Positions 24,802 through 25,576 of a DNA stretch of 64,000 nucleotides are shown here, in pieces. The notes beneath the pieces are model-generated. The model saw only the letters and a list, made by a program, of their open reading frames with translations, was not told the origin of the DNA and ran no database searches. Positions within the stretch are counted from its first letter, which is position 1. Each line of letters starts with the position of its first letter. The stretch comes from Pseudomonadota bacterium (lineage in GTDB: Bacteria; Desulfobacterota; Binatia; UBA9968), in assembly GCA_021324155.1 (NCBI GenBank), contig JAJPJQ010000023.1, positions 124,001-188,000 of the forward strand, written 5' to 3'. The translations under genes and the position numbers were made by a program.

Positions 24802-24889
24802 CACTTGGCATCGGAATCATGATCGTATAAAGACGAAGCGTACGCGTGGGCTTCATATCAATAGCGGCGCAATCACAGGAGGAGATAAA

Positions 24890-25495
24890 ATGTCGGAAAT
24901 TAGATTAGGCGCGAAGGTTCCCGACTTCGAGCTGGAGACCTACGAGCCGACGAAAGGCGATTTCGGCACGTTCAGCCTGAAAGATCAGATCCAGAAGAAG
25001 CGCTGGACGATTCTTTTCTTCTACCCGGCCGATTTCACCTTCGTCTGAGCGACGGAATTCGCTGCTCTGGCAGAGCAGCACGACCGTTTCATAAAGATGG
25101 GCTGCGACATCGTGACCGTGAGCACGGACACGAAGTTCGTGCACAAGGCGTGGCAGGAAAGCGAGAAAGAGCTGGCGAAGGTGAAATATCCGATGGGCGC
25201 CGACCGCTCGGGCAAAGTCTCGCGCATGTTCGGCGTCTTTGACGAGGACAGCGGCCTCGATCTGCGGGGCACTTTCATCATCAATCCGCAGGGCGTTTTG
25301 ATGAATGCGGAGGTCAACTTCTACAACCTCGGCCGCAACATCGACGAGATGATGCGGAAATTTAAAGCGAACATGTACTTGGCAAAGAAGACAAACGAGG
25401 CCTGTCCTTCGAAGTGGAAGGACGAGGGCGATCAGACGCTCACGCCGTCGGCCAAAATGGTCGGCAAAGTACACGAAGCGTTGCAGGGGAAGTAA
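24890..25495 (+). CDS. Selenocysteine-containing peroxiredoxin (AhpC/Prx1-like)
   Basis: Two open segments in one frame are separated only by TGA at 25046-25048, in the context FTFV-TGA-ATEF. This is exactly the peroxidatic cysteine position of 2-Cys peroxiredoxins (PxxxTxxC). Read as selenocysteine (U53) the product is 201 aa, a full AhpC/Prx1-type enzyme reducing H2O2 and organic peroxides. The resolving cysteine is C172 in EACPSKW. A perfect AGGAGG precedes the ATG at 24890. A hairpin 12 nt after the UGA (25061-25079) fits a bacterial SECIS. Related proteins such as PrxU are known selenoproteins. The alternative, a nonsense mutation, is unlikely because homology continues intact on both sides. 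Confidence 0.9.
25061..25079 (+). other. Bacterial SECIS-like hairpin
   Basis: GCTGCTCT (25061-25068), loop GGC, and AGAGCAGC (25072-25079) form a perfect 8-bp stem starting 12 nt after the in-frame UGA, with the loop about 20 nt downstream. Guanines in a small apical loop at this distance match what SelB-binding bacterial SECIS elements look like. The stem lies within the coding sequence. The structure was judged by eye. Confidence 0.7.
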
Positions 25496-25514
25496 AAAAG
25501 CAGCCACATGCGAC

Positions 25515-25534
25515 GGGGCCGCAGCAGCGGCCCC
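25515..25534. terminator. GC-rich hairpin after the selenoprotein gene
   Basis: GGGGCCGC-AGCA-GCGGCCCC is a perfect 8-bp stem with a 4-nt loop, 20 bp after the peroxiredoxin stop and about 40 bp before the 3' end of the convergent zinc-ribbon gene. No clear T-run follows on either strand, so it may act as a weak or bidirectional terminator or a transcript-stabilising hairpin. Confidence 0.5.
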
Positions 25535-25576
25535 GGTCCGCGCTTTCATTCGGGAGGATCGCGAGAAGAGCGACCG

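Follow-up and report, generated by a model that had tools for sequence, protein, structure and literature searches.

The substrates reduced by the peroxiredoxin AhpC are hydrogen peroxide and organic hydroperoxides. Peroxiredoxins carrying selenocysteine (Sec) form an established family, as the preliminary description of this locus had rightly stated. The available portions of the survey papers report a 'Prx, TxxU' selenoprotein family with 12 members (PMC1794560), 253 Prx selenoproteins in marine reads (PMC2398784) and 91 in 78 organisms (PMC5029168), and the available part of PMC5330540 describes a Sec-containing AhpC of Blastococcus saxobsidens decoded at UAG. As far as these sources go, the kind of protein described here is therefore already known. 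The gene that we report from the window, the 64,000-nt stretch of DNA that was analyzed, adds to it; the published Prx and AhpC selenoproteins were compared with it by description. For bacterial Sec insertion, the accessible sections of PMC9312934 and PMC13188914 describe SelB bound to an mRNA hairpin bringing Sec-tRNA-Sec to the UGA. A literature search covered titles and the beginnings of abstracts, with most subscription journals outside its reach; among the papers listed, none named the clade described below or dealt with Sec peroxiredoxins from its lineages. The main text of PMC8262859, which presents Binatota genomes, contains no 'selen', 'peroxiredoxin' or 'UGA'.

Compared with these systems, the window protein shares with PrxU of Eubacterium acidaminophilum and the 'Prx, TxxU' family the typical peroxiredoxin architecture with predicted Sec at the peroxidatic position of T-x-x-U. 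As in the Sec AhpC of B. saxobsidens, at least in the available part of PMC5330540, an AhpC with Sec is combined with a predicted bacterial SECIS (bSECIS), but that gene uses UAG and a CUA tRNA-Sec, whereas the window gene uses UGA and a UCA tRNA-Sec. With the Cys-containing AhpC proteins (TIGR03137; Salmonella AhpC, PDB 4xra and 1yf1) it has the fold and the residues Pro46, Thr50, Arg126 and Cys172 in common, and it differs from them in Sec for Cys, in Ala, Phe and Ala at positions +1, +4 and +6 after Sec, and in an extra residue shortly after Trp176. We put the probability that the gene encodes a Sec form of AhpC, with Sec inserted at the UGA, at about 94%. The features of the locus, all on the plus strand, are as follows.

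24877..24882, plus strand: Shine-Dalgarno-like AGGAGG, 7 nt 5' of the start codon, read from the sequence
24890..25495, plus strand: Sec-AhpC gene, from ATG 24890 to TAA 25493-25495, 201 residues when the TGA is read through
25046..25048, plus strand: TGA, predicted Sec codon 53 at the peroxidatic position, from the sequence and the codons of homologues
25061..25079, plus strand: predicted bacterial SECIS hairpin, arms 25061-25068 and 25072-25079, loop GGC 25069-25071
25061-25078, plus strand: 18-nt core of the predicted SECIS, the same in all 13 TGA loci
25265..25267, plus strand: Arg126 codon, invariant in 30/30 alignment rows and aligned with the conserved AhpC Arg
25403..25405, plus strand: Cys172 codon, predicted resolving cysteine in EACPSKW, invariant in 30/30 rows
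25515..25534, plus strand: inverted repeat GGGGCCGC-AGCA-GCGGCCCC 3' of the stop codon, possibly a terminator, without a T run

The inverted repeat was absent from the output of the terminator scan. A single in-frame TGA interrupts the reading frame, in the active-site context FYPADFTFV-U-ATEFAALAEQ. The preliminary description had placed this TGA exactly at the peroxidatic Cys of a 2-Cys peroxiredoxin (FTFV-U-ATEF), with frame and family similarity continuing across it and the resolving Cys in EACPSKW intact, and had expected ordinary gene calling to truncate the protein or shift its start. All of this was borne out: the TGA is codon 53, the rest of the gene is intact, the read-through protein matches Pfam and PDB entries, and among ORFs of at least 60 aa this strand and frame yields only a 132-aa fragment starting at ATG 25097. 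That ATG, in frame and 48 nt 3' of the TGA, would also allow the UGA to be a true stop separating two products, a 52-residue peptide and a 132-residue protein. We regard this as extremely unlikely, since the peroxidatic site would be incomplete in both pieces and the stretch from the TGA to ATG 25097 is the most conserved part of the gene, with residues +1 to +10 invariant in 13/13 TGA forms.

The read-through protein matched Pfam AhpC-TSA over residues 7-137 (2.3e-36), and its closest PDB chains by sequence were bacterial AhpC (4.2e-49). An AlphaFold2 model, built from 30 input sequences (12 TGA forms read as Cys and 18 Cys forms), reached a mean pLDDT of 90.3, and its best PDB match was Salmonella AhpC (4xra) with TM-scores of 0.84/0.90. 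In protein alignment A3, consisting of 12 TGA rows and 18 of the 22 Cys rows, Pro46, Thr50, Arg126 and Cys172 are conserved; we take these to be the catalytic AhpC residues, Arg126 being the active-site Arg. The protein thus displays the AhpC-TSA fold, the P-x-x-x-T-x-x-C(U) motif, the active-site Arg and the C-terminal resolving Cys that characterize AhpC/Prx1-type 2-Cys peroxiredoxins. Against the narrower NCBIfam models it scored below the curated cut-offs, with 195.5 bits against 272 for the AhpC equivalog TIGR03137 and 190.8 bits against 270 for PrxU (NF040737). The minus strand also carries an open frame over the whole gene (24905-25549, 214 aa), and coding could in principle lie there; however, the plus-strand protein, the one searched, has Pfam and PDB matches and codon-level selection as a peroxiredoxin, and mirror frames are common in G+C-rich genes, which leaves minus-strand coding a negligible probability.

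We then compared the gene with its relatives. A scan of 84,980 species, one genome each, gave 20 relatives, and further ones were found by searching 58 relatives together with 297 genomes from the phylum and 148 from the class. Two loci, L018 and L019, duplicate L040 and L039 (590 nt identical) and entered the counts only once; L037, whose sequence ends before the site, was dropped; and L026, which starts just upstream of the TGA, is included in the 13-row counts and left out of the 12-row codon count and the tree. The Cys relatives comprise 10 from the species scan, 11 from the phylum genomes and L042. More distant Cys peroxiredoxins (about 40% identity or less) and the site codons of matches without a locus are excluded from the counts. 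On this basis, codon 53 is TGA in 13/13 loci of one clade, the window copy (L038) included, whose other 12 proteins are 71-84% identical to the window protein, and a Cys codon occupies the site in 22/22 chosen relatives, which are 44-64% identical to it. The in-frame UGA therefore aligns with the Cys of homologues, as is characteristic of bacterial selenoproteins (13 TGA loci, 22 Cys relatives). The preliminary description had held that a non-Cys codon at the site in homologues would count against it; the homologues inspected at the codon, with a recount covering the 22 Cys relatives and the 13 clade loci, have TGA, TGC or TGT there, and a sense codon for any residue other than Cys did not occur.

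When the Sec/Cys site was masked before tree building, all 12 full-length TGA forms fell into a single clade with support 100/99; the tree holds 12 TGA, 22 Cys and 9 chosen outgroup rows, with some long branches among the rows outside the TGA clade. Such a clade fits a single Cys-to-Sec change, with either transfer or old descent thereafter. Amino-acid identity to 11 homologues was 64-89% in the 44 codons before the TGA and 71-87% in the 126 after it, and dN was lower than dS on both flanks wherever dS could be computed (Nei-Gojobori method, experimental Biopython module; dS not computable in 2/11 comparisons upstream and 3/11 downstream). These data bear on the possibility that a Cys codon was mutated or misread to give the TGA, in a pseudogene or a faulty sequence, so that the protein is not made. 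TGC becomes TGA by one substitution, and a draft assembly read from a single genome would permit such an error, but 13 loci share this TGA and differ synonymously in the codons around it, the hairpin described below is frozen in the TGA forms only, and Sec genes are present in the genome. With selection acting on both flanks of the TGA, a pseudogene or error is excluded for practical purposes.

Besides the multi-phylum clade, two results are new relative to the preliminary description, a SECIS hairpin and a displaced Asp. The hairpin has an 8-bp stem beginning 12 nt 3' of the TGA. The Fig. 2 legend of PMC13188914, the portion used here, gives four bSECIS constraints: a loop of 3-9 nt and a stem of 4-16 bp, a G in the first two loop positions, a distance of 16-37 nt from the UGA, and an MFE of at most -7.5. 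The window hairpin lies within these limits as stated there, with a 3-nt loop (GGC), a stem of 8 bp, a UGA-loop distance of 20 nt and -18.4 kcal/mol, which is the energy of the 57 nt following the TGA. Synonymous recodings of the flank with the codon usage of window genes formed an 8-bp stem in 0/5000 cases and were as stable over 42 nt in 3, and among the TGA trinucleotides of the window only 12/1578 are followed by an 8-bp stem within 42 nt. In the 22 Cys relatives, no consensus structure was found at the hairpin region. A lower stem appears in single folds; its partners differ between sequences and it is absent from the consensus, so that we do not claim it. Rfam gave no match to the hairpin, its one hit being a chance microRNA match on the opposite strand (14.2 bits against 100).

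The same 18-nt core recurs in 13/13 TGA loci, down to the third codon positions. Of 76 invariant, codon-degenerate columns in the 12 full-length forms, 11 use one codon only, and six of these 11 are the consecutive hairpin codons +5 to +10. Columns with at least four synonymous codons are frozen in 4/4 cases inside the hairpin versus 0/39 outside, and those with two or three synonymous codons in 2/2 versus 5/31. The Ala codons used in the hairpin, GCT and GCA, account for 69/516 Ala codons in eight window genes. Across the TGA loci, the seven inner stem pairs never vary and the outermost pair is GC in 9, GU in 3 and GA in 1; the core stem, its sequence being fixed, shows no covariation, and the invariance of the inner pairs explains why support of that type is absent. 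Further, the exact 18-mer occurs at three sites in 395 genomes of the phylum, all in the Sec-AhpC gene (the window's own genome, G150 and G177). Sites with one mismatch number ten in the same genomes, one of them the opposite strand of the window's own site, and a TGA 15 nt ahead on the matching strand is missing from all ten. The reversed pattern gave 8 sites in the 395 genomes, indicating that the one-mismatch sites are at chance level. Judged from these alignments, the hairpin looks fixed as a sequence and not by shape alone, and it imposes Ala-Ala-Leu-Ala-Glu-Gln on the protein.

Correspondingly, the residues directly after Sec are A-T-E-F-A-A-L-A-E-Q in 13/13 TGA forms. The preliminary description had pointed to an Ala after Sec where Pro is usual, and the counts agree: Ala in 13/13 TGA forms versus Pro in 15 and Ser in 7 of the 22 Cys relatives. 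At +4, 13/13 TGA forms have Phe versus Leu in 22/22 Cys relatives, and at +6, 13/13 have Ala versus Asp in 22/22. These counts at +1 and +6 indicate that the Ala after Sec is real and that the hairpin region displaced an Asp kept by all 22 Cys relatives. The Ala at +1 together with the loss of Asp at +6 is a departure from all 22 Cys relatives, and we counted it against the Sec reading. Moreover, 12/12 TGA rows of alignment A3 carry the extra residue shortly after Trp176, where 0/18 Cys rows have one and the alignment has a gap.

A search of the genome for the Sec-insertion genes had been recommended as a check, and all of those sought (selA, selB, selD and tRNA-Sec) were found. In the window's genome (4.8 Mb, 98.13% complete), selD, selB and selA lie adjacent on contig C16 and scored 391.6, 412.3 and 602.9 bits, respectively, each above its curated cut-off; the tRNA-Sec scored 74.8 bits, above the Rfam cut-off, and has the anticodon tca (ARAGORN). 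The genome thus holds the Sec machinery expected alongside a bacterial selenoprotein. Close to its start, the selD gene (G000:C16:68287-69216, L085, outside the window) also contains an in-frame TGA (AAAG-U-AAKL), which makes SelD a predicted selenoprotein too; what follows this TGA differs in sequence from the peroxiredoxin hairpin. Among the other carriers of the TGA form, selA was above the cut-off in 12/12, versus 3/10 Cys-form genomes, the search for selA and tRNA-Sec having covered 10 of the 22 Cys rows. At E 1e-10, tRNA-Sec was found in 9/12 other carriers and in the same 3/10 Cys-form genomes as selA; it was missed at this cut in G433, G434 and G439, where 105 of 660 to 917 candidates were scored. 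The three Cys-form genomes with both selA and tRNA-Sec are those of L029, L034 and L035 (G442, G447 and G448), and G448 has three tRNA-Sec matches above the Rfam cut-off.

We also considered genome-wide reassignment of UGA and rejected it, since UGA is the stop codon of 26/48 long ORFs picked mechanically from the window, a set that includes shadow ORFs. The UGA of this gene might still be read as another amino acid, by Cys, Trp or a near-cognate tRNA, with the hairpin acting as a read-through stimulator: the inserted residue is not visible from sequence, and 3/12 other carriers gave no tRNA-Sec match at the cut used. Against this stand the UCA tRNA-Sec, selA, selB and selD of the genome, a hairpin conforming to the bSECIS model, Cys or TGA at the site in all homologues inspected, and selA in 12/12 other carriers; we consider insertion of another amino acid very unlikely. 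The selenoprotein reading put forward earlier is thus supported by the shared TGA, the hairpin and the Sec genes of the genome, from which we infer Sec insertion itself. In the mechanism that these genes suggest, SelD would form selenophosphate and SelA would turn Ser-tRNA-Sec into Sec-tRNA-Sec, which SelB, on the hairpin just 3' of the UGA, would deliver there in place of termination. In the protein, Sec53 would attack the peroxide and become a selenenic acid, Cys172 of the partner subunit would resolve this to a selenenyl sulfide, and a thioredoxin-like or AhpF-like partner may then reduce the selenenyl sulfide.

The records carrying the TGA form are labelled Candidatus Binatia, Deltaproteobacteria, Acidobacteria, Vicinamibacterales, Candidatus Methylomirabilota, Candidatus Rokuibacteriota / Rokubacteria, Nitrospiraceae and Planctomycetota. 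In the window's class, 4/148 genomes have it, all of one family; two members of this family, G017 and G021, share their gene with the records titled Candidatus Binatia and Deltaproteobacteria, which points to the class Binatia. Two further TGA loci (G150 and G177) come from another family of the phylum. The carriers besides the window's genome are metagenome bins where titles are known, and some of the contigs are 3-6 kb. Apart from the Binatia and Deltaproteobacteria ones there are eight named records, of which six are on contigs of 28-132 kb or are 39 kb in length and one (L020) is on 5.9 kb; with these lengths, single taxon labels may be wrong, but hardly all of them. All matching records in the plasmid collection (92) and the phage collection (11) were below 60% identity, and the clade pattern gave 0 matches in viral contigs.

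The neighbourhoods of the 13 loci, compared through ORFs of at least 80 aa, have no neighbour common to the whole clade, and only pairs of loci share any, so that no operon argument can be made. In the window, the upstream neighbour of the Sec-AhpC gene is a RidA-like gene. In L068 (941-1438), a rubrerythrin gene ends 32 nt before the start codon of the Sec-AhpC gene, and an Rrf2 regulator is encoded downstream. In L024 (2350-7216), the Sec-AhpC gene has cbb3-oxidase genes on one side and a FixG-like gene on the other. For these two relatives only, the context gives mild support to the peroxidase mechanism. The window's bacterial family also contains a second peroxiredoxin clade (L043-L047, in G022, G013, G003, G018 and G005), in which the peroxidatic codon is again TGA and the next residue is Pro (UPTEINEF). 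The tree, in which L046 is not represented, sets this second clade apart from the window's, and 4/5 of its members have a GGT-loop hairpin; L044 has a mismatch and folds otherwise. G005, listed as 100% complete, carries the second UGA peroxiredoxin (L047), yet selA and selB above the cut-off and tRNA-Sec at E 1e-10 were absent from it. One missing contig could explain this absence, because selB and tRNA-Sec share one contig in G013 and G022; in the other reading, Sec decoding was lost and the gene left behind.

Taken together, we think it plausible, with the chances evenly balanced, that one Cys-to-Sec event occurred in one AhpC lineage and that the gene then spread over at least five named phyla with its own 18-nt SECIS unchanged, while the proteins diverged down to about 71% identity. 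Distant SelB proteins would then read sequence as well as shape, and the SECIS would have overwritten the protein, displacing the Asp of every Cys relative examined. Such an element would dictate the active-site helix and be an obvious candidate where a portable Sec-insertion signal is sought. The gene places Sec decoding and a predicted Sec peroxidase in Binatota-type and other uncultured lineages, where gene callers would split the Sec-AhpC at the UGA. For specialists, it offers an 18-nt SECIS kept letter-perfect across phyla, together with the protein changes that accompany it.
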